DNA of 33,970 nt from a virus. The notes beneath the pieces were generated by a model, which was not told where the DNA came from, ran no database searches, and saw only the letters and a list, made by a program, of their open reading frames with translations. Position numbers and translations under genes: made by a program. This document shows, piece by piece, positions 8,986-24,861 of this stretch; position 1 is the first letter of the stretch, and each line of letters starts with the position of its first letter. Location: IMG/VR virus record IMGVR_UViG_3300032294_002231, positions 1 to 33,970 of that record; one strand, 5' to 3'.

Positions 8986-9300
8986 TTAAGCTCCTCCTTT
9001 CATGGCTTTAATCAATAGCATTGCCACAGAATTTAAAGGTACAATGAAGCCTATTACGTTTTTATATGGATTGCGATCATCATAGTCAACCATAACTCCA
9101 GAAGCACCAAGTTTCTTTTGTAATGCCACACTAATTTCATTAGCTAACATTTGCTTATCTCTAGGATCTTCAAGTTCTTGATCTAATACGAACTGCATTT
9201 TAACTCCAAGCTTTGTTGGATTATCATTTACGTCAAACCTAAGTTTGTACTTTTTTCCTGCTACAGTTATATCAAATAATGGATTAGCTGCCTTTGCCAT
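8986..9300 (-). CDS. Hypothetical protein, 104 aa
   Basis: The N-terminus (MAKAANPLFDITVAGKKYKL) is beta-rich, the middle helical (KQMLANEISVALQKKLGAS) and the C-terminus hydrophobic (VIGFIVPLNSVAMLLIKAM). The hydrophobic end is short of a convincing transmembrane segment. It is the last small gene before the sugar cassette, which starts 18 bases after its ATG side. Function unknown; a virion component is possible by size and style only. Confidence 0.65.
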   Translation of the reverse strand: MAKAANPLFDITVAGKKYKLRFDVNDNPTKLGVKMQFVLDQELEDPRDKQMLANEISVALQKKLGASGVMVDYDDRNPYKNVIGFIVPLNSVAMLLIKAMKGGA

Positions 9301-9318: not shown

Positions 9319-10602
9319 TTACTCTATAATCAATAATGAATAGTCGAACGGTGGATTAGTTACAACAATTTGATTCTGGGCTAGATCTACCACATTTCTA
9401 ACCTCTATTTTTGCAGATCCTAGTTCATATATTCCAGGTTCAGAACCTTCCAGAATGTCACCCAAGCGCGTTATATTTTGTAAGAATTCATCTTTAGTTG
9501 GATCTATATTTGTAAAGTCTACTTCTACTTTTATATTAAAGTCTATTGGGCTTCCTACTTTATATATAGATTCAAAATCTGTTGCATTATAAAACTTTTG
9601 TGCAAAGTTCCAATCTTCATTTGAAAATCCTAAAAGTTGATTTGCTGGCTCATGCTCATTACTTAGAGTATTAATCATTAATTGTTTTTGATCCTGACTA
9701 GATATCCATACTCTAGAAAAATAAACTTCTAATTGTGCAAGGAACATTGGATTTATCGTTCTACTATCTTTAATTACTAGGTCTATATCTAATTTTTTTA
9801 ATTTAGATTCTCCATGATTAAATCCTCCCCACTTTTTTAAAAATCTTCTTAATTCAATTCCATCAGCAACTTTTTGAAGTTCCACTCTTTTTTTAGCTTC
9901 TTCGTTATTTGGATCAAACCAATTCTTTCCTCTAGAACTTGTGCATGTAAAATGATATACATTAGCTTTCCAAGTTTGAATTAGTTTAATCTCAGCGTGA
10001 ATACATCTTTGTACAAGATCTGAATCTTCTCTTGATCTTCTAAATAACGTATCATAACCACCGATGCTTTGCCATACTTTTTTATAAAATGTTATAGGTG
10101 CAAAGAAATACTCAGCAGTTCTATTAGATTTTACAGATTCGGAATATGCATTCCATTTATTAATATCGAATACTGTAGGATCTGTTCCAAAATCTTCTGT
10201 TATTGTATAATCAGAATATCCATGTAATGGTGGTTCTATTCTAGTTGCAGACAATATACAATTATCTTCTATCTCAGATAATATATTGGTATCATAATGA
10301 GGACCTATAACCATGTCTGATTGAAGATAGGATATTATATCGTGTTTTGCTAATTCTACTAATAAATTATTATTCCTAGAATATCCTATACAAGGTTTTA
10401 TTTTATGTGTTATTATTTTTAAATCAAAAAAATCTTTTTGAATGCTTTTTAAATAACCATAAACATCTTCATTATCTGAATCTATAAATACTATTATCTC
10501 ATGCTCTTTGCCATCTAAATTATCTTTTAAAGATTTCATTAACAACTCTACATGATCTCTGGTGTTAACGGATGTGTTAGTTACAAAACTTATATTTTTC
10601 AT
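9319..10602 (-). CDS. Family 2-type (GT-A) glycosyltransferase, 427 aa
   Basis: A GT-A fold is indicated by the N-terminal strand and nucleotide-sugar site (ISFVTNTSVNTRDHVELLMK, then IIVFIDSDNED). A metal-binding acidic motif, YLQSDMVIG, lies near residue 93, and the acceptor-side REDSDLVQRC near residue 190. This catalytic domain spans about residues 1-235. The remaining 190 residues are a C-terminal extension that I do not recognise, which makes the protein longer than a minimal family-2 enzyme. It is the last gene of the sugar cassette in transcription order and overlaps the preceding epimerase gene by 26 bases. Donor and acceptor are unknown. Confidence 0.8.
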   Translation of the reverse strand: MKNISFVTNTSVNTRDHVELLMKSLKDNLDGKEHEIIVFIDSDNEDVYGYLKSIQKDFFDLKIITHKIKPCIGYSRNNNLLVELAKHDIISYLQSDMVIGPHYDTNILSEIEDNCILSATRIEPPLHGYSDYTITEDFGTDPTVFDINKWNAYSESVKSNRTAEYFFAPITFYKKVWQSIGGYDTLFRRSREDSDLVQRCIHAEIKLIQTWKANVYHFTCTSSRGKNWFDPNNEEAKKRVELQKVADGIELRRFLKKWGGFNHGESKLKKLDIDLVIKDSRTINPMFLAQLEVYFSRVWISSQDQKQLMINTLSNEHEPANQLLGFSNEDWNFAQKFYNATDFESIYKVGSPIDFNIKVEVDFTNIDPTKDEFLQNITRLGDILEGSEPGIYELGSAKIEVRNVVDLAQNQIVVTNPPFDYSLLIIE

Positions 10603-11368
10603 ATTCTAATTTTAATGCATTTTCAAAACCTATTAAGTCTATTGGTAGATCTAATAGTGAAGTTTCCTCTCCTACATATTTTGTAGTACTACTAATTTTA
10701 TCTTCAATGTTTATATCCACTTCATAGTCTCCTAAAGTGTTTATTAGTTTAGCAATATCAATTAAAGATCTTTTTTCTTTTGAGTAACAGCAGTCTACGA
10801 ACTTGGCAGGATATTCAGTTTCTATATAATATTTAACTACGGTCCAAAGATCTTCCATGTAAAAAAAGTCCATGAATTTATTTCTATGTATTTCAATTGG
10901 TTTTTTATTTACATAATTACTTAATGCAGATCTAATAAATCTAGTCTCTAATTCTCCTTCACCAAATAAAGAAAATATTCTTATATTGTAAAAATTAAAT
11001 TGATCAAGTATAGATTTATGAATTACTTTTTTACTTAGACCATAAGGAGTGTAGTCTAAATAATCTTCAGCTCCAGATCCAAATGTTATAAATTTACTAT
11101 ACTTATTTTTGTGTTCTAAAATATTATAGTACATTCTTATATTATCATCTAAAACATCCCAGCTATCATGATACAATCTACTACCACCTCTAACTGCGCA
11201 ATGAATAACCAAATCAAACCTAGTATGAGAATTAAATAATAGGTCTACATGCCCTCTATTAGTGAAGTCTACTACAGATCTTTTAGGTGTATATACATCA
11301 TGATTCTTTAATTTTTTAGATAAAAATCTACCTATAGTGCCATTACTACCTGTTATAAGAATCTTCAT
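10577..11368 (-). CDS. NAD(P)-dependent sugar epimerase/dehydratase or reductase (SDR), 263 aa
   Basis: An extended short-chain dehydrogenase: Rossmann motif TGSNGTIG at residues 6-13 and active-site Tyr-Lys in TPYGLSKK near residue 120, with a Ser/Gly-rich region (FGSGAED) just before. It is shorter than the usual 310-340 residues, resembling compact 4-keto-reductases and GDP-fucose-synthase-like enzymes. It could reduce or epimerise a keto-sugar made by the dehydratases of the cassette. It directly follows (abuts) the E1-beta-like gene, whose product may act on the same sugar. The exact reaction cannot be told. Confidence 0.8.
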   Translation of the reverse strand: MKILITGSNGTIGRFLSKKLKNHDVYTPKRSVVDFTNRGHVDLLFNSHTRFDLVIHCAVRGGSRLYHDSWDVLDDNIRMYYNILEHKNKYSKFITFGSGAEDYLDYTPYGLSKKVIHKSILDQFNFYNIRIFSLFGEGELETRFIRSALSNYVNKKPIEIHRNKFMDFFYMEDLWTVVKYYIETEYPAKFVDCCYSKEKRSLIDIAKLINTLGDYEVDINIEDKISSTTKYVGEETSLLDLPIDLIGFENALKLEYEKYKFCN

Positions 11369-11907
11369 TATTTTTCTTTTGAATAGTCTGCAAACTCTAC
11401 AAGAATTGTACTCTTACCATCTTCACGCTCTAAAGCTTTTTTATAAGCAGGCATAATATCTTCTGGTTCATTTAATTCAATAACTTCTATATTTTGAAGC
11501 ATGGATCTAAATGCATTAGAAAAATTTCCTTTATGCTGACATTGGGGATCTATAGGTCTCTCACTTCCTACTGCAACTCTAATAATAACTTTAGGTCTAC
11601 ACTTACCACTTGACATAGTGATAAATTTATCAAGATGATTTACTATTTGATCTGCGCCCATTAAAATAAAATTCCATCTAGGAAATGTAGATACTGGTAT
11701 TAATCCGCCTTCTATTGCCATTCCATTTGCTAAACCGCATTGTAGATATTCTGCAACAGGTAATTCTATTCTTTTATTTTCTGATATATGTTTTAATGAA
11801 TCATACAATCCGGTTCCTTCATACTCTACAGCTTGACCAATAAAAATAGTTTTTGGATCTTCTGCTAAAAAACTCATTGCTTGTTTTAATTCTTCTGCGT
11901 ATTTCAT
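11368..11907 (-). CDS. E1-beta-like subunit of a thiamine-diphosphate enzyme, 179 aa
   Basis: This resembles the pyrimidine-binding (Pyr) domain of 2-oxo-acid dehydrogenase E1-beta and transketolase. It begins YAEELKQAMSFLAEDP and has FIGQAVEYEGTGLY, ELPVAEYLQCGLANGMAIEG (the Glu that activates thiamine diphosphate lies here in the family) and the QIVNHLDKF helix. The start is placed at 11907, 4 bases after the stop of the partner gene. A full E1-beta has about 325 residues; the C-terminal transketolase domain is missing. With the neighbouring E1-alpha-like subunit it should form a split ThDP enzyme. In a sugar cassette, two-carbon transfer to a keto-sugar is the likely job (inference). Confidence 0.8.
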   Translation of the reverse strand: MKYAEELKQAMSFLAEDPKTIFIGQAVEYEGTGLYDSLKHISENKRIELPVAEYLQCGLANGMAIEGGLIPVSTFPRWNFILMGADQIVNHLDKFITMSSGKCRPKVIIRVAVGSERPIDPQCQHKGNFSNAFRSMLQNIEVIELNEPEDIMPAYKKALEREDGKSTILVEFADYSKEK

Positions 11908-11911
11908 AATA

Positions 11912-12538
11912 TTAAAATTGAACTCTTTGTCCTGCCCCAGCATGAGGATATTTTTCATTATTATATTTGTAGTATATTAAATGAGGTTGATATACAATAT
12001 CTTCTGTTGGTTCTTTATCTAAATAGTAAGGAATATCTCTTCCCCATATTTTATTTGTTGGAGTACAAACAGACTTCTGATTATCTTCTACAACAAATAT
12101 TATAGGAAGATCATGACCTTGTGCAAATTTATACGCTTCATGCCAATGTCCTGTTTCTGTACTCATGTCTCCCGTCCAAACCCACACTCTTCCTTTTTTA
12201 TTTTGTAATTTCAAAGACCATGCTATACCTGTCGCTATAGAAGGAATACCTCCTACTATAGATGAACAAATAAATTTATACTCAGGCAAATTCATTACCA
12301 TTGATTTTCCATCTAATATTCTTTCTGTAATTACTTCTTTAGGAATTCCTTTTAGTAGTGCCTGATAGTGATTTCTCCAAGTACAACACACCCAATCATT
12401 TTCTGTATCTATATTTTTAAATACCTTAATTATTTGATCTTCATTTCCAGAATATAAATGTATAGGTGCTTTTATTTTACCAGCATTAAAAAGATCTCCT
12501 ATTTCTTTTTCAAAATCTATAAGTTGTTCTTTTGTCAT
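11912..12538 (-). CDS. E1-alpha-like thiamine-diphosphate-binding subunit, 208 aa
   Basis: The ThDP-binding motif GD-(x28)-N is present as GDMSTETG at residue 123 and VVEDN ending at residue 153. Upstream blocks typical of E1-alpha are seen: HLYSGNE, CTWRNHYQALLKG and SSIVGGIPSIATG. The chain is much shorter than the usual 330-370 residues. It lacks the phosphorylation-loop region and any lipoyl-domain partner in the cluster, so a dehydrogenase complex is unlikely. Its stop lies 4 bases before the E1-beta-like start, so the two subunits are made together. It probably decarboxylates a 2-keto acid or cleaves a ketose and donates a two-carbon unit. Confidence 0.82.
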   Translation of the reverse strand: MTKEQLIDFEKEIGDLFNAGKIKAPIHLYSGNEDQIIKVFKNIDTENDWVCCTWRNHYQALLKGIPKEVITERILDGKSMVMNLPEYKFICSSIVGGIPSIATGIAWSLKLQNKKGRVWVWTGDMSTETGHWHEAYKFAQGHDLPIIFVVEDNQKSVCTPTNKIWGRDIPYYLDKEPTEDIVYQPHLIYYKYNNEKYPHAGAGQRVQF

Positions 12539-12542
12539 ATTA

Positions 12543-13241
12543 TTATTTTCTATGTTTAAAGATCATATAATGGTTCCAATCAGTTATATTTTCATCTGGT
12601 AAAAGCGTTTCACTACTAATTCTTGGATAGTGAGGAGTTTTTAATTCTGATCCATAGAATCCTTCCATTTGCCAATGATGGGTATATAGTAAATAAATAA
12701 AGTTATCAAAATCAAATAAACCTCTATAAACATACTGATGAGACATTCTCCAATTAGGATTGCTTATAAAGAACAAAGAGTTTTCATTTGTTAATTGATA
12801 TACGGTTTTTATAATAATATGAGGATTGTATACATGTTCTAAAAAATCATTAGCAATAACTAAATCGTATTTATCATACAATCCAGAAGTATCAAATGCG
12901 CTTGATAATTCTTTTACAAAAAAAGTTCCTTTAAATCCATGTTCTTTAAAATATTTTTCTGCAAATGGTTTATCTACCAAATGATATTCTAAATTAGGAT
13001 TTGTTTCTAATATTTTTTGAGATAATATTCCTGGACCACTACCAATCTCTAGTACTCTTTTGATATGTGGATTCTGTGAAATTGTTTCTAATATAAGAGA
13101 AGCTTCGTATTCATATCTTCTTTGCCATGCATTTTCTTGTAATCTACCAGCATCTTCCCATTCATTTAAATGTTCTGTGTCAAAATGCTCCATTGAAAAT
13201 ATTTCCTCAAAATTTGTATGTTGTATTCTAAATAGTCCCAT
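12543..13241 (-). CDS. Class I SAM-dependent methyltransferase, 232 aa
   Basis: SAM-binding motif I is VLEIGSGPG near residue 70. Motif II/III-like YHLVDKPFAEK and YDLVIANDFLEHVYNP follow in order, matching Methyltransf_11/23-type enzymes. The C-terminal part is rich in Tyr and His, perhaps for sugar binding. The start is at the ATG 13241 within TAATG, overlapping the stop of the RmlB-like gene; a TTG 6 bases upstream is less likely. It probably methylates a sugar or glycan made by this cassette. A role on a protein or lipid is not excluded. Confidence 0.82.
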   Translation of the reverse strand: MGLFRIQHTNFEEIFSMEHFDTEHLNEWEDAGRLQENAWQRRYEYEASLILETISQNPHIKRVLEIGSGPGILSQKILETNPNLEYHLVDKPFAEKYFKEHGFKGTFFVKELSSAFDTSGLYDKYDLVIANDFLEHVYNPHIIIKTVYQLTNENSLFFISNPNWRMSHQYVYRGLFDFDNFIYLLYTHHWQMEGFYGSELKTPHYPRISSETLLPDENITDWNHYMIFKHRK

Positions 13242-14206
13242 TACCAAATAAATTTATTTTTATAATAATTTACAATCTCTTTTAGTTCTTCATCAAAATC
13301 TGCTTCAGGTTTCCAACCAAGTGATCTAAGTTTAGAATCATCTAAAGCATATCTAACATCCTGACCTGGTCTTGAGTACGATAAGTCTAAATAAGATTCT
13401 ATAGGAAAAATCTCTTCTGCTCTATTATATTCATTTATTACTTTCTTAACAGTATCCCAATTAGATTGTTCATATCCTCCTGCTATATTGAATATTTCAT
13501 TTTGAATTTCACTTTCAATTATTTTTACAACTGCTTTAGCTGTATCAGAAGCATGTAGCCAATTTCTTATAGGACTTCCATTATTATGAAGAGGTATTTT
13601 TTTTCCTAATTTTAAATACTTACAAGATCTAGGAATTAATTTTTCTACATATTGCCCTATACCATAGTTATTTGTTGGTCTAACTATAACATATGGAATT
13701 TTATATGTTCTTCCCCAAGCTAATATTAATTGATCTGCCGCTGCTTTAGTTGCGGAATAAGGATTAGAAGGTTTTAATAAATCTAATTCTGTATGCACTC
13801 CATCTTCTATATCACCATAAACTTCATCTGTAGAAAAATGTATTAGTGTAGGTTTTTTACTTGATTCCTGTCTATAGTTTTTAATTAATTCTAATAAATT
13901 ATGAACACCATTTATATTAGAATGGATAAACTCATTAGAATTAACTATTGAATTTCCTACATGAGTTTCTGCTGCTGTGTTTATTATGGCATCACATTCA
14001 TATAAAAATTTTAGATTATTAATATCTTCTTTTTCCCATAAAAATTTATCTTTATACTTTTCTGAGAATTCAAATAAAAGATCTTTATTTGCGGCGTATG
14101 TGCATTTATCTATACCATATACATACCAACCTTTTTCTAAACAGGCTTTTGTTATGTGACTACCTATTAGTCCAAAACAACCTGTGATATAAACTGATTT
14201 ATTCAT
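13241..14206 (-). CDS. dTDP-glucose 4,6-dehydratase-like enzyme (RmlB family), 321 aa
   Basis: The Rossmann motif is TGCFGLIG. NTAAETHVGNSI, FSTDEVYGD and the catalytic YSATKAAAD occur in RmlB order, and VRPTNNYG and YALDDSKLRSLGW are typical C-terminal blocks. It would convert a nucleotide-activated glucose into the 4-keto-6-deoxy intermediate, the branch point of many deoxysugars and the expected substrate step for the RfbH-like gene at 22941. The nucleotide (dTDP, CDP or GDP) is uncertain. The length is typical. It overlaps both neighbours by a few bases. Confidence 0.88.
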   Translation of the reverse strand: MNKSVYITGCFGLIGSHITKACLEKGWYVYGIDKCTYAANKDLLFEFSEKYKDKFLWEKEDINNLKFLYECDAIINTAAETHVGNSIVNSNEFIHSNINGVHNLLELIKNYRQESSKKPTLIHFSTDEVYGDIEDGVHTELDLLKPSNPYSATKAAADQLILAWGRTYKIPYVIVRPTNNYGIGQYVEKLIPRSCKYLKLGKKIPLHNNGSPIRNWLHASDTAKAVVKIIESEIQNEIFNIAGGYEQSNWDTVKKVINEYNRAEEIFPIESYLDLSYSRPGQDVRYALDDSKLRSLGWKPEADFDEELKEIVNYYKNKFIW

Positions 14207-14984
14207 AAATACTTTTTATTTTAGAATACGGAATTTGATTTCTTATTTCTAGTTCTAATTCATTACCTGCTTCATTCTCTCTAATAATTCCACGTTGTCT
14301 ATTAGAAGGTGTTTCATTAAATACATAAGAATAAAAATCTAAAACTCCTATTTTATTTTCAGGACACATTTCTAAACATGGAAAAGATGTTGCTAAATCT
14401 TCTGCATGAAAATAGTAATCATTAGTTTTACTATAGATCATACTTTCCAATTTAATTTTTTTATATAATCCCCATTTAAAAGTTCTCAAATGAGAAGCTC
14501 TCCAATGATCTAATCTAAATAAATTTTTATCACAAACTTCATTAGCATACTTAGTATTTTGTGGATATCCTGGTGTTTCACTAGGATAACAAATCAATCC
14601 TCCGTATGTCATCCAAATATTTTTTTCACTATAAAAGTTAGATAGTTTGTAAAAAACATTTTCATCAAATAACCAATCATCACCATCTACAAATACCAAG
14701 ACATCATCGTCATTATTAATGAAGTTTATTATGTCAGGATTATAGGGACTTACATTATATCCACGTCTTCTATTTACTTTATTTGATATTATTTTCCAAT
14801 TATTAAGATTTCCAACTATGTCATTAACTTTTGATAGCGTATTATCTATAGATGCATCATTTATATACAGTACTTCATAATTAGTGTAAGTTTGATTTAA
14901 TATACTAGCTAAATTATACTCTACCCAACTTTCATTATTATATGAAGGTATTACTACTTTAAATTTAACTTCCGTAGAATTCAT
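14199..14984 (-). CDS. Family 2 (GT-A) glycosyltransferase, 261 aa
   Basis: Typical GT2 blocks are present: FKVVIPSYNNESWVEYNLAS, SILNQTYTNYEVLYINDAS and the metal-binding VFVDGDDWLF at about residue 95. The ED-like acceptor motif HAEDLATSF lies near residue 200. The start is placed at 14984 (MNSTEVKFKVVIPSY); it overlaps the tandem methyltransferase by 20 bases. No membrane segment, so it works in the cytoplasm on an activated sugar and an unknown acceptor. Confidence 0.85.
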   Translation of the reverse strand: MNSTEVKFKVVIPSYNNESWVEYNLASILNQTYTNYEVLYINDASIDNTLSKVNDIVGNLNNWKIISNKVNRRRGYNVSPYNPDIINFINNDDDVLVFVDGDDWLFDENVFYKLSNFYSEKNIWMTYGGLICYPSETPGYPQNTKYANEVCDKNLFRLDHWRASHLRTFKWGLYKKIKLESMIYSKTNDYYFHAEDLATSFPCLEMCPENKIGVLDFYSYVFNETPSNRQRGIIRENEAGNELELEIRNQIPYSKIKSIYE

Positions 14985-16227
14985 ATAGCGTATCGTATTT
15001 AAATCTATTTTTAACAATATAACCTAAATCTTTCATAAAATTATCAAAATCTTTTAAGTTAGTACCAGTTTCGTAAGTTTCAAACTCACTAGTTTCTGCA
15101 AAAATTAGTTTTGGTCTAAAATCGCCTAAACACTTTAAAACTTTCATCTCAGCCCCTTGAACATCTATATGTAAATAATCTATATTTTTTATATTACTTT
15201 CTATGCAAAATGTATCAAATCTTTTTGTTTTTACTTTATATCCTTTTAAATCATATTCTAGACCGTCATGAAAAATACCTTCTGAAGTACCTTCTTTTAC
15301 AACTGGTTTTACTATAGATCCTGAATTTTTCCATGTTTTACCATTTAAGTTATCACTAGGATAAAATAATATTTCTCCATCTGAATCGGATAGCGCTATC
15401 GGTAATACTTCTATTCCAAATCTAATAGCATTTTGTGAAAATTGATCTATATTATATGAATCTGGTTCGAAAGAATAGACTTTTGAATTTTTAAATGCAG
15501 ATTTAAATACAATTGATTCTTTAAAGTCGCATGCTCCTACATCAAATATAGTTAAATTATCTTGATCAGTAAAATAATTTTTAATTATTTCAACTTCTGG
15601 ATGAATTACAAATATATCATCTGTATGTAGTCTGTCTACTAAATTATATCCTTTGCTAAATAACAAGTCTCTTATATCTTTATTTTCATAATTATTTTCT
15701 ATAGCCATTGTTTTTATATTAAATTTGTAAAAATCTATACATTTTAAAACTTCTAGCTCTCCTCCTTCTATGTCTAAACTTAGAAAATCTATTTTTTTAA
15801 AATTATTATCTAATAAAAGTTTATTTATATCATAACACTTCATATTAATATCAGTGGTTTTTTGATTTAAAGAATCTACTTCTTTATTTATTCTTTCCAC
15901 ATGTTGATCTTCATAAACTTCTACTATACCACTAAGCATTTCAGAATATCCTTCAATCATTCTAAAAACTTTATTAGTATCTTCACTCCATGCGCATCCT
16001 TCAACTAATATACAGTTTCTATTTTGTTTTAATTTAGTAAAAATTTTAGGATGAGGTTCTATACAAATTCCACTCCAATTAAGAACTTTTTCAAAAAAGA
16101 AAGTATTACTTAAACTTTCTCCATCATGTGCTCCTATATCAACAAAAACTCCACCTATTTTATTTTTAAAATAGTTTTCATTTATATATCTATCTTGTCC
16201 ATATTGAGATTTGTAAAAATTAACCAT
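14965..16227 (-). CDS. Tandem FkbM-family methyltransferase (two domains), 420 aa
   Basis: Two successive FkbM-type methyltransferase domains lie in one chain. Domain 1 (about residues 1-205) has SQYGQDRYI, VFVDIGAHDGESLSN, CIEPHPKIF and FLSLDIEGGELEVLK. Domain 2 (about 215-420) has IFDVGACDFKES, VYSFEPDSYNIDQFSQ and YLHIDVQGAEMKVLK. FkbM enzymes O-methylate sugars and polyketides using SAM. The usual enzyme has a single domain of about 200-270 residues, so this is a fusion or duplication. The two halves differ enough that they may act at different positions of one sugar. It sits between two sugar-modifying genes. Confidence 0.88.
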   Translation of the reverse strand: MVNFYKSQYGQDRYINENYFKNKIGGVFVDIGAHDGESLSNTFFFEKVLNWSGICIEPHPKIFTKLKQNRNCILVEGCAWSEDTNKVFRMIEGYSEMLSGIVEVYEDQHVERINKEVDSLNQKTTDINMKCYDINKLLLDNNFKKIDFLSLDIEGGELEVLKCIDFYKFNIKTMAIENNYENKDIRDLLFSKGYNLVDRLHTDDIFVIHPEVEIIKNYFTDQDNLTIFDVGACDFKESIVFKSAFKNSKVYSFEPDSYNIDQFSQNAIRFGIEVLPIALSDSDGEILFYPSDNLNGKTWKNSGSIVKPVVKEGTSEGIFHDGLEYDLKGYKVKTKRFDTFCIESNIKNIDYLHIDVQGAEMKVLKCLGDFRPKLIFAETSEFETYETGTNLKDFDNFMKDLGYIVKNRFKYDTLYEFYGS

Positions 16228-18120: not shown

Positions 18121-18131
18121 ATAATTTAATT

Positions 18132-18887: not shown

Positions 18888-19711
18888 AGTATGTCTTTAT
18901 ATTTTGTATATAAAAAATCTTCTCCTATTTTATGTTTTAAAGCTAAATTAAAATTTTCTTTTATTTCTTTATGATGAGAATTATAAAAATTTATCAAGTA
19001 TTCTTGATTGTTTATTATCTTTTCAAGTTCTTCATAAGTGTCAAAAATTAAAAATCCGTTAGAATTAAAAAAATTTTGTATGTATTTAGATCCATAATAT
19101 ATAGGAATACATCCTGATAGGAAACAATCTATTATTTTTTCTGTAAAATAATAACCCTCTTTAATGTTTTCAACTACTACAGAAAAAGCATAGTCTTTTA
19201 CTGAATGTATTTTTTTAACTCTTCCTGTACCTGTTCCACTTCCCATAACATCAATTAAATTTCCATACATTTTAGCAATGTTATGTCTAATACTATGACC
19301 AGGAGCAAAGTTTTTATCTGAATACATCATGGATATTAACTTCGTTTTTTCATAGTCTAGCTTAATCTCTTCTTCATCTAAATGGCATCCTCCTATAGGA
19401 ACTATATATGAGTTAGGAAATTGTAAAATACTTTCTGAGTGAGTAAATATTTTATCAAATAAATGATGATTTGACATTACAAAATTATATGCTTCTCTAG
19501 TAACCGCTGGGGATTCTATTAACCATGCATACTTTTTAAGGTGTTTATACTCTAAATTGCTAACTGTATTTACATGGCTGTCTGTAAAAAATATAAAATT
19601 ATTTAAGACATTATTAAAATCCCACTCAAAGTATGTTGGCTTAAACCAATTACTAGTAGAATAGGCATGAGAAAAGTGCGCATCTTTTATAGACCATTTT
19701 TCTAAATTCAT
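18884..19711 (-). CDS. Family 10-type (fucosyltransferase-like) glycosyltransferase, 275 aa
   Basis: The C-terminal donor-binding block FTEKIIDCFLSGCIPIYYG (residues 189-207) and the preceding SVVVENIKEGYYF closely match the alpha-1,3-fucosyltransferase (GT10) signature. It is smaller than the 300-450 residues of most family members, and the N-terminal half is poorly conserved. GT10 enzymes transfer 6-deoxy-sugars from GDP-fucose. Here the donor may be the unusual deoxysugar built by the cassette (inference). It overlaps its neighbours by 4 bases on each side. Confidence 0.78.
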   Translation of the reverse strand: MNLEKWSIKDAHFSHAYSTSNWFKPTYFEWDFNNVLNNFIFFTDSHVNTVSNLEYKHLKKYAWLIESPAVTREAYNFVMSNHHLFDKIFTHSESILQFPNSYIVPIGGCHLDEEEIKLDYEKTKLISMMYSDKNFAPGHSIRHNIAKMYGNLIDVMGSGTGTGRVKKIHSVKDYAFSVVVENIKEGYYFTEKIIDCFLSGCIPIYYGSKYIQNFFNSNGFLIFDTYEELEKIINNQEYLINFYNSHHKEIKENFNLALKHKIGEDFLYTKYKDIL

Positions 19712-20349
19712 ACAAGATCAGTTAATTTATCAAAAACTTTCCATTTAGTTGGCATAGTTTTTACAACATATAAAGATTTTAAATTTATAAGAGAATTCCA
19801 AACATTATAAAAATTATCAGAACTTAATATATTATCATTAATTTTTTTAGGATTTAATATTTGTATTCCACTTGCAAATAAATTAGATTCACAATCTCTA
19901 GATATTTTATCTATAATGTTATTACTATGTAGTATTTTATCTGCCTCTAATTTTATATCTATAGGAATTATACAAGCAGAAGGAGATCCTAACTCTACAT
20001 ATTCATCATATACTTTTTTTAAATCTAAATCTATGATAACATCACATGGTGATATTACTATAGGTTCATCAATGTATTTTATAATACTGTTAAATAAAAA
20101 ATATGAATTATCTTTATTTTTTGTATTAATAAAACCAGAAACTTTATTTTCTAATTCTTTAACAAGTATATCTCCTTTATATCCATAAGTAACATAGATA
20201 TTTTCTATATTATTTGAGTTTAGAAAATTTATTACATGATCTATTAAAAATACATTATTAACTTTAACCAAAGCTTTTGGAACATATTCTGTTATAGGTT
20301 TCATTCTAGAACCTAAACCTCCTGATAATATGATAGCATTTTTAAACAT
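19708..20349 (-). CDS. Sugar-1-phosphate nucleotidyltransferase, 213 aa
   Basis: The NTP-binding loop is AIILSGGLGSRMKPITEYVP with PKALVKVNN following, the classic GGxGxRxxP...PKxLxxV pattern. The later VISPCDVIIDLDL is the Mg-binding Asp region. Without C-terminal beta-helix it is compact, like GCD1/ManC-N-type enzymes; typical RfbF/RmlA proteins are about 255-290 residues. It would activate a sugar-1-phosphate for the cassette. Which nucleotide (CTP, GTP or TTP) is used cannot be seen. Given the RfbH-like gene, CTP is an attractive guess. Confidence 0.85.
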   Translation of the reverse strand: MFKNAIILSGGLGSRMKPITEYVPKALVKVNNVFLIDHVINFLNSNNIENIYVTYGYKGDILVKELENKVSGFINTKNKDNSYFLFNSIIKYIDEPIVISPCDVIIDLDLKKVYDEYVELGSPSACIIPIDIKLEADKILHSNNIIDKISRDCESNLFASGIQILNPKKINDNILSSDNFYNVWNSLINLKSLYVVKTMPTKWKVFDKLTDLV

Positions 20350-21299
20350 TATAGAGTATCAGGTTGTGCTTTAATAAGCTCTAAGATTTCTTCCTCAGTC
20401 AATCTTTCAGCTTCTTTAGAAGTAAAAATAAAAGGATGCGGAGTTTCTACTTTTTCATTAGGATGAATTAAAAAATGGTTAACCCCGTTAAACTCTAATG
20501 TTTGGCAAAATGAAAGTTCTGATTCTCCTACTAGATATTCATCGTCTCTTTCACCGGGTCTGTCAGTAATTTTTTCCCATTTTCCTCCAAAGTGTTTTGT
20601 CCATACATTTAAAATATCTTCAATTTTAGCAGACTTCATTACTCTAGATAAAATCTGACCTTGTATAAGATCTATATTATTCATAGCAGTTTCTACAAGT
20701 TGTACTGCATGATCTACTGTAAAGAAAAATCTTCTCATATCTGGGCCTGTAGTTCCTATTATTCCTGTTTCTTCATGCATTTTTTTCCAAATAGGTAAAA
20801 CAGATCCTGTAGACCATGCAACATTACCATATCTTACACAAGCAAATTTAGTTTTAGTCTTTCCATTAAGTAGACAAAACATTCTCTCCATTGTAGCTTT
20901 TGTAAGACCATAAATGTTTCTTACGGGAGGGCAGGCTTTATCAGTAGAAATTCCCACTACAAAATCTACTTCATATTCCATAGCAACTCTAGCAACATTT
21001 TGAGAACCTAATATATTTACATCTATACTTTCTAGAGGATATACCTCTGAAAGATCTACAAACTTAGTTGCTGCAGCATGAATAACAATATCAGGTCTTA
21101 CAAATTTAAAGGCATCTCTTATAGATTCAATATTAGAAATATCTAAAGGTAATGTAGTAGCATTAGTAGTTTTCTTTGCTTGAAAATTTTGTTTGTTATT
21201 TCTAGCACCTAAATAAACTTCGTATTTGCCATTTAATTTAAGAGCTAAATTTCTTCCTAAAAATCCGCTTCCACCTGTTATTAAAATCCTTTTTTTCAT
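20349..21299 (-). CDS. UDP-GlcNAc 4,6-dehydratase-like enzyme (PseB/CapD type), 316 aa
   Basis: The Rossmann motif is TGGSGFLGRN. PDIVIHAAATKFVDLSE, GISTDKACPPVRNIYGLTKA with the catalytic Tyr/Lys, CVRYGNVAWSTGSV and the MRRFFFTVDHAVQLV block are typical of the PseB/FlaA1/CapD group. These enzymes dehydrate UDP-GlcNAc at C4/C6, opening routes to pseudaminic acid, bacillosamine and related sugars. No aminotransferase with a catalytic Lys is present in the window for such a route. It is soluble (no N-terminal membrane domain). It overlaps both neighbours by one base. Confidence 0.85.
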   Translation of the reverse strand: MKKRILITGGSGFLGRNLALKLNGKYEVYLGARNNKQNFQAKKTTNATTLPLDISNIESIRDAFKFVRPDIVIHAAATKFVDLSEVYPLESIDVNILGSQNVARVAMEYEVDFVVGISTDKACPPVRNIYGLTKATMERMFCLLNGKTKTKFACVRYGNVAWSTGSVLPIWKKMHEETGIIGTTGPDMRRFFFTVDHAVQLVETAMNNIDLIQGQILSRVMKSAKIEDILNVWTKHFGGKWEKITDRPGERDDEYLVGESELSFCQTLEFNGVNHFLIHPNEKVETPHPFIFTSKEAERLTEEEILELIKAQPDTL

Positions 21300-21958
21300 T
21301 ATTTATTTGATTTTGGGGTTATACTATTTGTTCCTATATGTTTACAATATGATTTTTCCAAACATGCTGATGTATATCCGTGGTCTTTGTAAAACTTACC
21401 TGCCGCGGATTCTTCTCCATGTTGTTTAAACGATCCTATTAATTCATACTCTTTTTTTCTTCTTAATCCAGGATTCCATGAAAATCCATGCCAAGCATTT
21501 AAATAGTTTTTTTCATATTCATGGTATCTAATTCCTGAGGTACTTGTCATAATATCTGTTATGGGATGCATGCTACCTTTTTCTCCATCAAATCTAACTC
21601 TTAAATTAATATTAACTATATCGGGTCTATCGTCTAAAAGTATTTTAGATTTAGATAAAAATCCAGTATCAAAAAATTCCCAATCATCTTCACAATGAAA
21701 AATATATTCTGTATTAACAAAGGAATACACTCTATCTATACTAGAAACTTGTCCTATATTTTCTTCATTAATTATTAGATCAAAAGGTCTATTTATAGAA
21801 ATGGATATATTTTCCATATGTTTTTCAATATTTAGATCCGCTGAATTTTCTATGACTATAGTCTGTTCTATAGGTAAGTCTATATAATTAAAAAAACTCT
21901 GCATTGTTTTTTCTAATAAATTAAATCTACCGCAAGATGTAAATACAGCAGTTATCAT
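21299..21958 (-). CDS. GT-A glycosyltransferase-like protein, 219 aa
   Basis: The N-terminus MITAVFTSCGRFNLLEKTMQ and the metal-binding YIFHCEDDWEFFD at about residue 92 indicate a GT2-like domain; the C-terminal WHGFSWNPGLRRKKEY and HGEESAAGKFY look like acceptor-side blocks. It is smaller than the usual family-2 enzyme but the key acidic motif is intact. Donor and acceptor are unknown. The start codon abuts the gene at 21955 with a 4-base overlap. Confidence 0.75.
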   Translation of the reverse strand: MITAVFTSCGRFNLLEKTMQSFFNYIDLPIEQTIVIENSADLNIEKHMENISISINRPFDLIINEENIGQVSSIDRVYSFVNTEYIFHCEDDWEFFDTGFLSKSKILLDDRPDIVNINLRVRFDGEKGSMHPITDIMTSTSGIRYHEYEKNYLNAWHGFSWNPGLRRKKEYELIGSFKQHGEESAAGKFYKDHGYTSACLEKSYCKHIGTNSITPKSNK

Positions 21959-22944
21959 AAAGTATAAAGTTTTTGGATTATATCTTTTTTCCAGACTTCT
22001 ATAGAATAGTATTTATTGTAATTGTTTTTTGCAATATAACTACATTCTTCGTAAAATGATTTATTTTCTTTTAAAGTAGTAGCTAATTCTACGGCTCTAT
22101 TTATATCGTTAACATCTACAGATAAACTAGGATGGCATATTTTTTGAGTGTCTACTTCTCTGTTACCTATACAAGGTATTCCAAAATATGCACAATTTAA
22201 ACTAAAAGTACCTGCTGCTATCGTAGGCATTAGATGCACTGCATATTTAAAGTTAGATAAATTTTTCATCCAATCCAACCACTCCATTCTTGGTAGATGA
22301 TTTAATTCATCCATCATTTCCTCTGCTTCTCTTTTAGCATGAGAATCTTGAACATATATAGGAATAGAAAACTTAGATGCTACTATATAACTTTCAAAAC
22401 CTCCATACCATCTAGCAAAATTTCCTCCAATAATACAAATATCTTGTTTAGTGGGAATTATTGAAGATAGATTTTTTTCTATCATTAAAGTTTGTATAGT
22501 ATTTACTTTCTTATTTGGAAATAAACCTTTATAATATTGAGTATCATGTTCATTATGCGCAAATATAGAATCGCATTCTTGTATTAAATTATAAAAATGT
22601 ATTTGATCATAAACTTTATAATCGTTCCATAACCAGTGTGGACCTTCTTGTACAAAGTGAACTTTTTTATTTTTAGATTTTAATTTAGTAACTAGATTAG
22701 ATACTAATATATCTGAGATAGGATTTGTATTATTTACTAGTTTTACTCCTATTGAATTTAAATAAACTTCTCCTTTTGGAAATATAATAAAAATATGATC
22801 ATAGTTTTGAATAGACTCAAATAATCTTATATTATAGTGATCAGCATTTAATGCATGCATCCATGCAAATTCAGTTCTCATATTACGATGATCTTCTGAT
22901 ATTTTCCCTGAGAATCCCATCTCTGTAAGAAAAGCTATTTTCAT
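21955..22944 (-). CDS. GT-B-like glycosyltransferase, 329 aa
   Basis: A protein starting MKIAFLTEMGFSGKISEDH with an alternating strand-helix pattern through both halves, as in GT-B enzymes. The C-terminal half contains IVASKFSIPIYVQDSH, HLMPTIAAGTFSLNCAYFG and IPCIGNREVDTQK, the equivalent of the donor-binding region. Clear EX7E or similar motifs are not seen, so the family number is unsure. It sits between two recognised sugar genes with 4-base overlaps on both sides, which supports a role in the same glycan. Confidence 0.62.
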   Translation of the reverse strand: MKIAFLTEMGFSGKISEDHRNMRTEFAWMHALNADHYNIRLFESIQNYDHIFIIFPKGEVYLNSIGVKLVNNTNPISDILVSNLVTKLKSKNKKVHFVQEGPHWLWNDYKVYDQIHFYNLIQECDSIFAHNEHDTQYYKGLFPNKKVNTIQTLMIEKNLSSIIPTKQDICIIGGNFARWYGGFESYIVASKFSIPIYVQDSHAKREAEEMMDELNHLPRMEWLDWMKNLSNFKYAVHLMPTIAAGTFSLNCAYFGIPCIGNREVDTQKICHPSLSVDVNDINRAVELATTLKENKSFYEECSYIAKNNYNKYYSIEVWKKDIIQKLYTL

Positions 22945-24254
22945 ATTTGATTAATAAATTTATTAAGAATAGTTTCTATATAGTCTATCTTTTCTTTATT
23001 AATTACCGGCGATGTTCCTAAAAAAAATGTATCTGTAGTAACTTTTCTTGCAATAGGAAACTTTTCAATAACTTCTTTTGGATCCATAAGTCCTTCATAA
23101 GCAGGTTGTAACATAATATTACCTGCAAAATACGGTCTTGTTTGTATTTTATTTGCTTCAAAAAATTGACAAATATCTGATCTTTTAAATGGCGCATCAT
23201 CTTTTAAAGTTATTGGGAATGCAAACCAATCTACATCTGCTCCTGCTTGTGCTTCATGTAAATGAAAATATTGATCATACTTTTTAAAAGCATTAAATAG
23301 ATTTTTATAGTTTTCTCTTCTCTTAACTCCTATTTCTTCTAACTTTTCCATCTGTACTAATCCAATTGATGCCTGAAGCTCAATAGGTTTTAAATTATAG
23401 CCTATCTCTTCATAAACATATTTGTGATCAAATAAATCATTTGGTAGCGATGGTAGCCAATTATTAAAGCGGCAACCGCATGATCCTTTTTCTAACAAGT
23501 TTTGCTTACCTATACAATAACAACCACGACCCCATTCTCTAAAGCTACGTATAATTCTTTCAGTTTGTTCATCTTTACATGCAACAAATCCACCTTCTGC
23601 CATAGTCATATGATGCGCTGGATAAAATGAGCAACTTGCTAATTCACCAAATGATCCTAAAGGTTTTCCTTCATAGAAAGATCCTAATGCGTCACAACAA
23701 TCTTCTAATAAAATTAATTCATACTTTTCAACAATTTCCATAAGCTTTTTCATATTGGGAGGATTTCCTAATACGTGAGCAAATGTAATAATCTTTGCAT
23801 CAGGATTATTTATGCATGCTTGTTCTACTTGATCAAGATCTAAATTAAGAGTTTCAAGTTCAATATCAACAAATATAGGAGTGAATCCTACTTGTAATAT
23901 AGGATTAATAGTAGTAGGAAAACCTGCAATTGGTGTAATTACTTTTGTACCTTTAGGTAAGTTACGACCTCTTTTAGATGTCATAACTAACATCATTAAT
24001 AAGTTAGCACTTGATCCTGAATTGGCTAATAGTCCATAGTCTTTACCAAACTTTTTAGGAAACCTTGTTTCAAATTTGTTTGCATCTGCTCCTAATACTA
24101 ACCATTCAGTCAATAAACTTTTAACAGCGGCAACATATTCATCTGAAGAAAAATACGGTCCTGCATATTGAACCCAATCTTTTCCTGCTTCCCATTTCTT
24201 TTCTGCGTGTTTTTCTTTAATATACTTTTCTACTAATCCTAATATTTCTTTCAT
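22941..24254 (-). CDS. rfbH: RfbH-type CDP-4-keto-6-deoxyglucose-3-dehydratase (DegT fold), 437 aa
   Basis: A PLP-binding DegT/DnrJ/EryC1/StrS fold protein, but the catalytic Lys is replaced by His (SFYPAHHMTMAEGG, residue 214), the hallmark of RfbH/E1 and ColD-type dehydratases. The 2Fe-2S region is recognisable: WGRGCYCIGK then GSCGCRF (Cys 245, 247, 259, 261), followed by DHKYVYEEIGYNLKPIELQASIG. The 437-residue length matches RfbH. It removes the C3 hydroxyl on the way to 3,6-dideoxyhexoses such as paratose, tyvelose, abequose or ascarylose; in bacteria a reductase (RfbI/E3) supplies electrons, and none is visible here. ATGA overlap couples it to the next gene. Confidence 0.88.
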   Translation of the reverse strand: MKEILGLVEKYIKEKHAEKKWEAGKDWVQYAGPYFSSDEYVAAVKSLLTEWLVLGADANKFETRFPKKFGKDYGLLANSGSSANLLMMLVMTSKRGRNLPKGTKVITPIAGFPTTINPILQVGFTPIFVDIELETLNLDLDQVEQACINNPDAKIITFAHVLGNPPNMKKLMEIVEKYELILLEDCCDALGSFYEGKPLGSFGELASCSFYPAHHMTMAEGGFVACKDEQTERIIRSFREWGRGCYCIGKQNLLEKGSCGCRFNNWLPSLPNDLFDHKYVYEEIGYNLKPIELQASIGLVQMEKLEEIGVKRRENYKNLFNAFKKYDQYFHLHEAQAGADVDWFAFPITLKDDAPFKRSDICQFFEANKIQTRPYFAGNIMLQPAYEGLMDPKEVIEKFPIARKVTTDTFFLGTSPVINKEKIDYIETILNKFINQI

Positions 24255-24256
24255 AA

Positions 24257-24856
24257 CTATATTGTTTCGTATAAAGCGTTTTGTTTTTCTTGTCTTTGAA
24301 TATCTTTAGGATGAAATAAACAGTATTCTTCCATTTGTGGCAATACTGAGTATGTTTCAAATCTTTCTAAGCGTTCATGTACTTTATTTATCCACTTAAT
24401 CTTACTATTATTTTTCCATATTCTCCATTGATAATCCGGAAAGTTAATCCATCCTTTATCATTAACATTCCAACCCCACCGACCAATGTGTTGTGCAGTT
24501 AGTCCAGATACAGTATTAATCCTAGGTACTAAAATTACATCAATTGTTTGATTATATTCTAATATATCTCCCAAGTTAGTAATTAAATGTTGATGAGGAT
24601 ACTCATCTGCATCTATTTGAAAGATATAGTCTTTAGTACAATGCTTACTAAGATTATTTTTAAATGATGCAAAGTCTTTATTAAGAGGAAATTCTATATA
24701 GTCTTTGGCAATAGACCTAACCTCCTTAGTCGCATTAGAGTCTAATTGGATCACTATTTCATCTTCTTGACGTATATTATTACGTAAAACTTCTAATAGA
24801 AAGGATAGTTCCCTGTGCTCGTTACAGGCGGTTATAGCATAACTAATTGATGGCAT
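24257..24856 (-). CDS. Short family 2 glycosyltransferase, 199 aa
   Basis: N-terminal SISYAITACNEHRELSFLLE and the metal-binding DYIFQIDADEYPHQHL near residue 80 show a GT2 fold of the WaaE/KdtX-like type; the block WINKVHERLERF near the C-terminus is typical of that subgroup. It lacks the C-terminal domain of larger members. It is the first gene of the sugar cassette in transcription order (2 bases before the RfbH-like gene). Donor and acceptor are unknown. Confidence 0.82.
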   Translation of the reverse strand: MPSISYAITACNEHRELSFLLEVLRNNIRQEDEIVIQLDSNATKEVRSIAKDYIEFPLNKDFASFKNNLSKHCTKDYIFQIDADEYPHQHLITNLGDILEYNQTIDVILVPRINTVSGLTAQHIGRWGWNVNDKGWINFPDYQWRIWKNNSKIKWINKVHERLERFETYSVLPQMEEYCLFHPKDIQRQEKQNALYETI

Positions 24857-24861
24857 AACAT

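Follow-up and report, generated by a model that had tools for sequence, protein, structure and literature searches.

A constant-edged, exchangeable glycan-gene cassette in phages related to Flavobacterium phage immuto, a candidate protein-glycosylation locus

Gene content of the locus

The window, by which we mean the whole 33,970-nucleotide stretch of IMG/VR record IMGVR_UViG_3300032294_002231 that was analyzed, comes from a relative of the cultured Flavobacterium phage immuto and covers part of that phage's genome. Eighteen minus-strand ORFs of 196–437 aa each (c0–c17) fill 9319–24856 (Table 1). The initial annotation had counted seventeen consecutive glycan genes there, a number that does not hold; its description of a gap-free cassette with overlaps of a few bases or small gaps is confirmed, as neighbors overlap by 1–53 bases or are separated by at most 11 bases, the 53-base overlap (c10/c11) resting on a TTG start of c11 that may be wrong. 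The larger locus includes the glycosyltransferases GT4a and GT4b, which are assigned to it because of conserved synteny. Residual genes of uncertain family are c2, for which there is no Pfam family, c3, for which Pfam and PHROG searches gave no match, and the 148-aa protein, which is without a Pfam family and whose immuto homolog is without a PHROG. The PseB-like c4 scores 166 bits against a PseB cut-off of 407.75.

Table 1. Features of the locus in the window, in the direction of transcription
Feature	Position	Strand	Evidence
PD-(D/E)XK nuclease, conserved upstream flank	28578..29483	-	PF12705, phrog_69; same place in immuto and relatives
Small ribbon-helix-helix protein, conserved upstream flank	28299..28517	-	PF12651, 22.2 vs 21.6 bits; synteny
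GT4a, conserved group-1 (GT-B type) glycosyltransferase, opens locus	26849..28291	-	PF00534, phrog_2170
GT4b, second conserved glycosyltransferase	25543..26847	-	phrog_2170, E=8e-21; PF00534 below cut-off; synteny
Small protein, 80 aa	25301..25543	-	family in 19/41 records
148-aa protein, Cys pairs, zinc-ribbon-like by eye	24862..25308	-	family in 38/41 records
c0, GT2 with polypeptide-glycosyltransferase kinship	24257..24856	-	PF00535; family in 40/41 records
c1, RfbH-type NDP-4-keto-6-deoxyhexose 3-dehydrase	22941..24254	-	NF011936; family in 25/41 records
c2, without known family	21955..22944	-	own family in 17/41 records
c3, small-glycosyltransferase-like by eye	21299..21958	-	among 41 records, family in window only
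c4, PseB-like 4,6-dehydratase	20349..21299	-	PF02719; among 41 records, family in window only
c5, divergent nucleotidyltransferase	19708..20349	-	PF00483; among 41 records, family in window only
c6, GT10 (fucosyltransferase-like)	18884..19711	-	PF00852
c7, DUF7796 / phrog_13607	18132..18887	-	DUF7796 weak, 28.5 vs 27 bits
c8, SDR sugar epimerase/reductase	17263..18120	-	PF01370; family in 6/41 records
c9, SDR sugar epimerase	16220..17266	-	PF01370, PF16363
c10, tandem FkbM methyltransferase	14965..16227	-	PF05050, two stretches
c11, GT2	14199..15017	-	PF00535; TTG start, ATG 11 codons in
c12, RmlB-like NDP-glucose 4,6-dehydratase	13241..14206	-	TIGR01181; family in 24/41 records
c13, methyltransferase	12543..13247	-	PF13489; family in 5/41 records
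c14, ThDP enzyme alpha half (pyruvate dehydrogenase E1-alpha-like)	11912..12538	-	PF00676; TIGR03182 below cut-off; family in 4/41 records
c15, ThDP enzyme beta half	11368..11958	-	PF02779; PRK09212 below cut-off; family in 4/41 records
c16, SDR reductase, would end branched-sugar module	10577..11368	-	PF01370; family in 25/41 records
c17, right-end GT2	9319..10602	-	PF00535; model pLDDT 91.6, GT-A type matches
Conserved right border, HNH-like protein and three small proteins	7470..9300	-	phrog_10822

Comparison with related phages

Gene-order comparison found cassettes at the matching site in the complete cultured phage immuto and in many IMG/VR contigs, with flanks and conserved glycosyltransferases that are the same genes in the same order as in the window; such a cluster, initially thought unusual for a phage, is the rule among the phages compared here. 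The records were collected by similarity to the RfbH or the nuclease of the window, and the family frequencies are therefore biased. GT4a was matched in all 48 chosen records and is split or stop-containing in three. In the 37 records with both borders, which include the window and immuto, the cassette measures 6.6–27.4 kb (median 15.6 kb), and the HNH-like protein is at most eight ORFs away from the right border in every one, the protein also being among the four genes used to recognize that border. The 714 cassette genes of 41 records fall into 248 families, 167 of which occur in a single record, and 34 of these records have either c17 or an alternative family (family 5) but never the two together. 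Mean gene sharing (Jaccard) is 0.25 over the 15 record pairs in which GT4a is 80–90% identical, and the window itself shares genes at 0.11 with G019, 0.13 with G002, and 0.19 with G032. G001 and G030 are the two nearest relatives; the DNA identity of the window with G001 (91.6%) stops at 22941, which is the end of RfbH, and that with G030 stops at 24259, the end of c0. These large aquatic phages related to immuto carry, at one site, a locus whose edges stay constant and whose middle can be exchanged, with identity changing at gene ends, and the constant edges make the variable part easy to locate in sequence data.

Phage-borne glycan clusters are an already known kind of locus, of which the present one is a variant. 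The cassette of immuto (vB_FspM_immuto, Immutovirus) is like that of the window in its site, in the order of flanks and conserved glycosyltransferases, and in the variable sugar genes between them, but it is 8.1 kb long compared with 16.2 kb in the window, and at a 40% identity threshold it has no member of the RfbH, RmlB, ThDP, or c16 families. The moraphages, which are large aquatic Bacteroidota phages, resemble the phages compared here by description in having four core glycosyltransferase groups and low-homology islands, the contents of which are deferred to future work in the sections of that report used here (PMC12619734). The cyanophages P-SSM2, S-SSM7, and S-SM2 belong to another phage group and carry LPS gene clusters near tRNAs, and a locus with constant edges and a swapped middle is not described in the portions of the two reports on which we draw (PMC3037559, PMC2984593). 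A homolog of c14 is present in S-SM2 and in P-TIM68 (39–41%).

The predicted branched-sugar module

The hallmarks of RfbH are a histidine that replaces lysine at the PMP/PLP site and the iron-sulfur cysteines. The c1 protein exceeds the NCBIfam curated cut-off (459.6 compared with 423 bits) and matches 3bcx with E=2.9e-99, with the His-His aligned and conserved. At the iron-sulfur site it has two Cys pairs, along with four inserted residues that 3bcx lacks. RfbH is said to require a partner reductase (E3); none was recognized among the 18 cassette genes of the window, and the host may supply one. In the case of c12, the score of 286.7 bits is below the curated cut-off of 365.1 for what is nevertheless its best family, and for this reason it is named RmlB-like only. 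As the nucleotidyltransferase c5 is also far under every curated cut-off, the pathway cannot be called complete, as it had been initially. RmlB-type dehydratases usually give dTDP sugars and RfbH is described for CDP sugars, and this mismatch in the nucleotide carrier counts against the module proposed here.

RfbH co-occurs with RmlB in 24 of 25 records. A YerE-like family is present in 18 of the 41 records and absent from the cassette of the window; c16 comes next after 16 of these 18 genes, either directly or behind DmpF-DmpG, and the slot is occupied in the window and in G029 by the ThDP pair. Of 79 related viral loci found with c14 as the seed, 78 have the beta half next to it, 73 have an RmlB relative at a distance of no more than 3 kb, and 50 have RfbH at no more than 3 kb. 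In the window, the adjoining alpha and beta halves beside a 4,6-dehydratase have the arrangement of the alphaKADH2 sugar-branching enzymes and are a candidate enzyme of that type. The pair has the ThDP motif GDM...N and not GDG...N, and its subunits are short (208 and 196 aa); the PDB matches of c14 are to E1 alpha and weak, and in c15 the pyrimidine-binding domain alone is matched. A C-branched dideoxy sugar is the predicted product of the recurrent RmlB-RfbH-ThDP enzyme-SDR module. The module is similar to the yersiniose-type pathway (RfbH/E1, YerE) in its above-cut-off RfbH and in the YerE-like gene of the relatives, which in G002 has JanthE (8rph) as its best PDB match, but it is viral, it uses an RmlB-type in place of a CDP-glucose dehydratase, and the window has the ThDP pair in the place that a YerE-like gene takes in many relatives. 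The branched sugar is not general, because 13 of the 41 records are without any RfbH, RmlB, or c16 family.

Transferases and the likely acceptor

The model of c0 (pLDDT 95.4) has SunS and ThuS at Foldseek ranks 1–6 and VIA-align ranks 1–3, with Z scores of 16.5–18.7 and 1.9–2.1 Å over 169–171 residues. Its best PDB profile match is GmaR (2.1e-13), followed by an uncharacterized Leptospira glycosyltransferase and chondroitin synthase (1.2–1.3e-9) and then SunS (1.6e-8), so that c0, a lone 199-aa catalytic domain, is closest to SunS and ThuS by fold and to GmaR by profile; GmaR is not among the best 50 Foldseek matches listed for it. The fold of SunS, ThuS, and GmaR is common to sugar-to-sugar GT2 enzymes, and the kinship of c0 is therefore no proof of a protein acceptor. 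The best PDB profile match of GT4a is the glycosyltransferase B736L (3oy2, E=1.8e-14), which we take to be a chlorella-virus protein. Chlorovirus virions carry glycans. Virion glycans are also reported for mycobacteriophages, as cited in the part of PMC12619734 consulted; both groups have virus-encoded glycosyltransferases as here, and in the present phages a glycan is predicted from the genes.

Across the 37 records, a membrane segment is predicted in 7 of 660 ORFs inside the cassette compared with 111 of 1065 outside, and 3 of the 7 have at least two segments. All 18 cassette genes of the window are without one, and no flippase, polymerase, initiating transferase, or transporter (Wzx/Wzy/ABC) was found among them. 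Because membrane proteins are nearly absent, the cassettes supply no means of export themselves, and this, together with the polypeptide-glycosyltransferase kinship of c0, favors a cytosolic protein acceptor. The claim that the phage builds its own glycan fits these data, as the genes sit in phage genomes and very likely lead to a glycan; of the two targets that had been left open, the virion or the host surface, we prefer the former, reading the locus from its gene content and the c0 model as a cytosolic, hypervariable protein-glycosylation locus whose acceptor is probably a virion protein (probability about 0.5). That the acceptor is specifically a virion protein we infer.

Proposed pathway and significance

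Infected cells would make the nucleotide sugars in the cytosol, where RmlB would yield a 4-keto-6-deoxy sugar and RfbH would take off its oxygen at C3. Next, a two-carbon unit from pyruvate may be put onto the keto carbon by the two-subunit ThDP enzyme (c14 and c15), after which the c16 reductase would complete the branch to give a yersiniose-like C-branched dideoxy sugar, with c4, c8, c9, c10, and c13 supplying or decorating further sugars. The glycan would be built in the cytosol straight on a polypeptide, with c0, and perhaps GT4a and GT4b as well, as the constant transferases closest to the protein; the variable glycosyltransferases would extend the chain, and c17 could add a final or separate part. 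If, as seems most likely, the acceptor is an abundant virion protein, the cassette would set the outer glycan of the virion, and a cassette swap would change that glycan by one recombination event. Three ThDP modules may be distinguished, namely a GDG YerE-like enzyme (using pyruvate), a CDG YerE-like enzyme with DmpF/DmpG (which would make a longer hydroxy-keto-acid donor), and the two-subunit enzyme. The full proposal, of a virion "serotype" locus in which a constant polypeptide-glycosyltransferase gate is joined to a cassette exchanged in a single step, with C-branched dideoxy sugars on a virion protein and three interchangeable ThDP modules branching one sugar differently, is tentative, and we give it somewhat less than an even chance.

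That close relatives differ almost completely in the cassette suggests that an unusual glycan is made by these viruses themselves and exchanged among them, its most likely place being a viral protein. If this is true, phages would have a counterpart to the O-antigen or flagellin-glycosylation islands of bacteria, and sugar-branching ThDP enzymes would be placed in viruses. With immuto in culture, whether the virion carries the glycan can be tested directly.

Alternative readings and origin of the genes

The cassette could instead alter the host surface polysaccharide in infection (superinfection exclusion), its cytosolic glycosyltransferases using host lipid-linked intermediates that the host then exports. 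Such a role is proposed for 24 LPS genes of cyanophage P-SSM2, and LPS is described as containing YerE-type branched sugars, in the passages of these papers used here (PMC2984593, PMC12247030). However, with so few membrane proteins this route would depend on the flippase, polymerase, and initiating transferase of the host, and its constant first GT2 is the one nearest to cytosolic polypeptide glycosyltransferases, so that we regard a host-surface target as unlikely, if a serious contender. Glycosylation of the phage DNA, with a hydroxymethylated base or a deazaguanine as the site of the hypermodification, is quite improbable. It would be consistent with the short thymidylate-synthase-like protein (212–222 aa, a possible base hydroxymethylase) that adjoins a deaminase-like frame in G028, G029, G019, and G005 (duplicated by G004), and with the DpdA and queuosine genes annotated in the immuto record, but PHROGs labels the short form thymidylate synthase, and cassettes are present where it is not seen: the complete immuto has only the canonical 423-aa form, G010, G015, and G025 show only a long canonical-type enzyme, and the fragments G008 and G043 show no thymidylate synthase. 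Nor do the matches listed for the sequences of GT4a, c0, and c17 include a DNA glucosyltransferase.

It is highly improbable that the cassette is an assembly chimera, stuffer DNA, or cargo recently taken from a host, with no function for the phage. Stuffer DNA was weighed for the cyanophage LPS clusters, in the part of the report used here (PMC3037559), and 67–70% DNA matches in Bacteroidota genomes (c4, 70% over 577 bases; c9, 67% over 801 bases) indicate that hosts may have supplied individual genes. In the 395 sampled Bacteroidota genomes, DNA matches were scattered and confined to single genes, that of c9 being the longest, in a comparison that scored two candidates per genome and may have missed short matches; no whole-cassette match was found in them, nor by megablast among 50,697 phage and 72,556 plasmid records, and the host cargo or chimera initially offered as the refuting case did not appear where it was sought. 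The open frames and the synteny are preserved in a cultured phage and in dozens of records that come from many different metagenomes. In the RfbH tree, the phage sequences form one group (100/100 support), far from six Bacteroidota RfbHs at 40–44% identity; 29 RfbH matches were obtained in the 395 genomes at E<=1e-60, the best full-length one at 45%. The Pirellula sequence is the only other one inside the phage group, and the MAG contig that carries it, with relatives of RfbH, c8, and RmlB beside a transposase-like ORF, could speak for host cargo.

The Pirellula proteins are 79%, 59%, and 68% identical to the RfbH, c8, and RmlB of the window, respectively. Their genes adjoin the ORF in question, which is transposase-like by eye.

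Cassette content and limits of the locus

The cassette comprises 18 consecutive ORFs (c0 to c17, 9319-24856), with neighbors that overlap by 1-53 bases or are separated by gaps of at most 11 bases, and it encodes three GT2 glycosyltransferases, a GT10, five SDR epimerases/dehydratases, a nucleotidyltransferase, a ThDP pair, RfbH, and two methyltransferase genes, one of them a tandem FkbM. The gene families and tight packing given in the initial annotation hold, but its count of seventeen genes becomes 18 and its description of the pathway as complete is not retained. Pfam leaves two cassette genes, c2 and c3, without any family and gives one a weak match, and the 148-aa protein preceding c0 has no Pfam family either. 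PHROGs contain no match for c2, c3, the border proteins at 8215 and 8986, or the proteins that correspond to the 148-aa protein and to three border proteins in Flavobacterium phage vB_FspM_immuto (160 kb, complete), which by the conserved glycosyltransferase GT4a (62% identical) is the nearest cultured relative found.

The annotated order in immuto is DUF3310, nuclease, small protein, two glycosyltransferases, small protein, GT2, variable sugar genes, glycosyltransferase, small proteins, and HNH, and this order, on the minus strand of the window, recurs in most related IMG/VR contigs compared, a few of which have no recognizable nuclease, small protein, or right border. Microcystis phage Mel-JY01 has the left gate GT4a-GT4b-c0 in common with the window. 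The locus therefore spans about 9319-28291, and the nuclease and the HNH-like group should be taken as its constant flanks. GT4a is split or contains a stop in three records (G010, G009, and G026), reflecting decay or sequencing error. No description of this locus was found in the accessible parts of open-licence papers, and a term search of the LMO8 phage paper returned no mention of immuto.

Features of the window and of related loci (coordinates of the named record)
Feature	Coordinates	Strand	Remark
GT4a	26849-28291	minus	conserved glycosyltransferase
GT4b	25543-26847	minus	conserved glycosyltransferase
148-aa protein	24862-25308		
c0	24257-24856	minus	first GT2
Tandem FkbM methyltransferase	14965	minus	
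Methyltransferase	12543	minus	
ThDP pair (c14 and c15)	11368-12538	minus	phrog_34187
HNH-like protein	7470-8222		right border
tmRNA gene	32387-32773	minus	RF00023, 68 bits; upstream of locus
Small proteins with lipoprotein-like starts	31963-32361, 33079-33285		by eye
Edge ORF	33370-33969		resembles Bacteroidota secreted protein
RfbH, c8, and RmlB homologues	L239:529-3895		Pirellula MAG
Short thymidylate-synthase-like protein	L242:3519-4157		
Short thymidylate-synthase-like protein	L243:267-935		
Short thymidylate-synthase-like protein	L244:431-1075		
Short thymidylate-synthase-like protein	L245:469-1116		

Variable interior and break points

GT4a was found in 48 records and sequence was taken for 41, the other seven (G011, G012, G021, G023, G024, G039, and G044) being omitted by choice, as apparent duplicates, or because sequence downstream was missing; adding the window, immuto, and Mel-JY01 brings the set to 44, of which 37 show both borders and seven lack the right one. 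Family counts refer to 41 records, with G010, G026, and Mel-JY01 omitted because the right border was not seen, and with the near-duplicates G004/G005 and G043/G045 retained; because records were selected for their resemblance to the RfbH or nuclease of the window, these frequencies do not represent such phages as a whole. The interior between the borders measures 6.6-27.4 kb (median 15.6 kb, 37 records), where the two largest values, G025 (27.4 kb) and G020 (24.4 kb), are upper limits because the right border was recognized late and ORFs beyond the last glycosyltransferase were counted.

Clustering at 40% identity and 70% coverage sorts the 714 interior genes of the 41 records into 248 families, and 167 families are confined to a single record. 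The first GT2, c0, is the most widely distributed cassette gene (40 records), and the 148-aa protein is present in 38, RfbH and the SDR reductase c16 in 25 each, and RmlB in 24; eight families (c3, c4, c5, c6, c7, c9, c10, and c11) occur only in the window. The mean proportion of interior families shared is 0.25 for the 15 pairs of records whose GT4a proteins are 80-90% identical, and for the window it is 0.11 with G019, 0.13 with G002, and 0.19 with G032. In the two nearest relatives the break is seen directly. DNA identity with G001 (91.6%) stops at 22941, where RfbH ends, and that with G030 (84-98% in pieces) stops with c0, at 24259. No alignment longer than 60 bases lies beyond these points in another 6.6 and 7.5 kb of the two contigs, both of which stop short of the right border. 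Within the cassette, G032 and G002 align with the window at RmlB and in a few other places, and alignment resumes for good at c16/c17 and continues through the right flank. A fixed site with a constant gate, a changed middle, and cytosolic enzymes is well supported.

As to how the middle is exchanged, the right border carries the HNH-like protein in all 37 records that show it. In the column where the first catalytic His of the motif should fall, a His is found in only 2/37, making an active HNH nuclease doubtful, and swapping driven by a homing endonuclease was dropped as the mechanism for the same reason. The protein may instead be a DNA-binding protein.

Membrane segments and the glycan acceptor

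In the 37 cassettes, 7 of 660 plus-strand ORFs have a membrane segment by the Kyte-Doolittle criterion (19 residues, mean of 1.9 or more), compared with 111 of 1065 outside them in the same records; the 18 cassette genes of the window have none. If a flippase, polymerase, or initiating lipid transferase were present, it would hardly escape notice. The scarcity speaks against a self-sufficient surface-polysaccharide locus, and it fits assembly of the glycan on a soluble acceptor.

The AlphaFold2 model of c0 (pLDDT 95.4) has SunS and ThuS, named in their entries as glycocin S-glycosyltransferases, at Foldseek ranks 1-6, and in VIA-align these give Z scores of 18.7, 17.4, and 16.5 (1.9-2.1 Å over 169-171 residues), followed as the next family by a fucosyltransferase (Z 15.2, 3.0 Å). 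The c0 profile has as its best PDB match GmaR, which glycosylates flagellin (E=2.1e-13, positions 4-203 of 208), then an uncharacterized Leptospira glycosyltransferase and chondroitin synthase (1.2-1.3e-9), and SunS (1.6e-8); GmaR is absent among the best 50 Foldseek matches. The GT4a profile best matches glycosyltransferase B736L (3oy2, 1.8e-14; next 1.4e-7), a chlorella-virus protein. According to PMC3150276, GmaR has a dual function as flagellar anti-repressor and glycosyltransferase, and a paper cited there calls it an O-GlcNAc transferase. The fold of the right-end GT2, c17, returns a scatter of generic glycosyltransferases (chondroitin synthase, GalNAc-T2, TarP, and TarS) with no hint of an acceptor. 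The c0 and GT4a likenesses are kinships rather than activities, and taken with the scarcity of membrane proteins they favor a polypeptide acceptor; a protein is the probable acceptor. That it would be a virion protein is plausible, because a phage gains most from modifying its own abundant proteins and because virion glycans have been reported for mycobacteriophages (as cited in PMC12619734).

Sugar and ThDP modules

The window's RfbH (c1) scores above the curated cut-off and retains the His in place of the usual Lys. In the 25 records with RfbH, RmlB is also present in 24 and c16 in 22, and all three are absent from 13/41. A ThDP enzyme of 575-600 aa is found in 18 records, and that of G002 has as its best PDB match 8rph (4e-176), which is JanthE, a YerE-like enzyme (PMC12188165). 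YerE is described as transferring activated acetaldehyde to CDP-3,6-dideoxy-4-keto-glucose towards yersiniose A, and in JanthE a CDG replaces GDG (PMC12247030). In 16/18 the YerE-like gene precedes c16, either immediately or with DmpF and DmpG, in this order, in between. The position ahead of c16 is taken in the window and G029 by the two-subunit ThDP pair, G020 has both ThDP types, and G014 ends at the pair.

Eight phage YerE-like enzymes have the CDG form and ten the GDG form, the latter including G027, whose match reads DGDGS. DmpF (PF09290) and DmpG (PF00682 and PF07836), of the acylating acetaldehyde dehydrogenase and 4-hydroxy-2-oxovalerate aldolase types, accompany 7/8 CDG forms versus 0/10 GDG forms (Fisher p=2.5e-4, an inexact probability as the records are related); the phage-borne pairs are in G002, G006, G015, G018, G019, G025, and G032. 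A related enzyme, ErwE, prefers 4-hydroxy-2-oxo acids as donors (PMC12247030), so that a donor of this kind could come from DmpF and DmpG if they run towards synthesis.

Two-subunit alphaKADH2 enzymes are described as branching sugars with pyruvate in antibiotic pathways (PMC12247030). A second set of 79 viral loci, seeded with c14 alone, overlaps the first (several contigs are the same) and includes near-duplicates; the beta half adjoins in 78/79, and an RmlB relative (at least 50% identical) lies within 3 kb in 73/79, with the match placed within 3 bases of the c14 start in 32 of the 73 and downstream in 18. RfbH is no more than 3 kb away in 50/79, and c16 (at least 35%) in 31/79. The predicted product of the cassette would be a C-branched dideoxy sugar, and the window's cassette likely makes a branched sugar. 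Both ThDP halves match the same 405-position PHROG of unassigned function, suggesting that the halves are fused in some phages, and c14 homologues occur in cyanophages P-TIM68 and S-SM2.

Origin and relation to known systems

A megablast of the cassette gave no match in phage or plasmid collections. That the cluster might match a host locus at the DNA level, a possibility raised initially, is not borne out, as no whole cassette was found in any of 395 sampled Bacteroidota genomes. With two candidates scored in each genome, 70 of these genomes give DNA matches at E≤0.001, every one of them to only part of the cassette. The two strongest lie in c4 (577 bases, 70%) and c9 (801 bases, 67%), single genes that may be host-derived. 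RfbH matches at E≤1e-60 in 29 of the same genomes, with 45% identity for the best full-length match, and in the RfbH tree (midpoint root, 100/100 on both sides) the phage sequences, among them G041 on a very long branch, form one group in which the Pirellula MAG sequence is nested, separate from six Bacteroidota RfbHs. The RfbH survey, the tree, and the DNA comparison all count against a recent transfer of the entire cassette from a Bacteroidota host. An exact peptide pattern scan of genome contigs, which detects close relatives only, gave 3 matches, and a search for GT4a in 46 genomes of one order, run without a positive control, gave none and is given no weight.

A 3-kb Flavobacteriales MAG contig carries a 57% RfbH fragment adjoining RmlB, and it may itself be phage. 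An archaeal MAG contig holds distant RfbH, RmlB, and ThDP homologues together, indicating that this module also exists in cells. In the Pirellula MAG contig, RfbH, c8, and RmlB are 79%, 59%, and 68% identical to those of the window, and the adjoining ORF is transposase-like; phage-bacterium exchange is the likely explanation. On this evidence the cassette is an established component of the phages, with a degree of exchange with bacteria. Phage-borne glycan clusters are already known as the LPS clusters of cyanophages (PMC3037559, PMC2984593), and moraphages are described as having core glycosyltransferases and unexplored islands (PMC12619734), so the cassette is a variant of something known, for which immuto offers a clear experimental handle.

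Surroundings of the locus

The window record (33,970 bases) is classed as linear in IMG/VR and is therefore probably a fragment. Its minus strand holds almost all likely genes, and it also encodes a PD-(D/E)XK nuclease, the HNH-like protein, two tRNAs, and a tmRNA. A tmRNA is also present in 14/27 related loci scanned (L002, L003, L033, L060, L082, L087, L090, L092, L095, L101, L103, L108, L110, and L115), some of which share one contig, and the tags predicted by ARAGORN are of two kinds, short ones (ADYALAA, ANEYAVAA) and unusually long ones that resemble each other (AEELSSFTFEDAMSFVGADYAVAA, DEMSTMTFEDLMSFVGADYALAA). The window also has two small proteins with lipoprotein-like starts, and its edge ORF is kept in several relatives (71-97%). 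PF01702, used as a test for DpdA, was over the cut-off in 0/17 records, and since these include immuto, in which DpdA is annotated, this family misses phage DpdA. In several related phages, short thymidylate-synthase-like proteins (212-222 aa) adjoin a dCMP-deaminase-like frame and are possible base-modifying enzymes; G028 has a canonical thymidylate synthase besides the short form.
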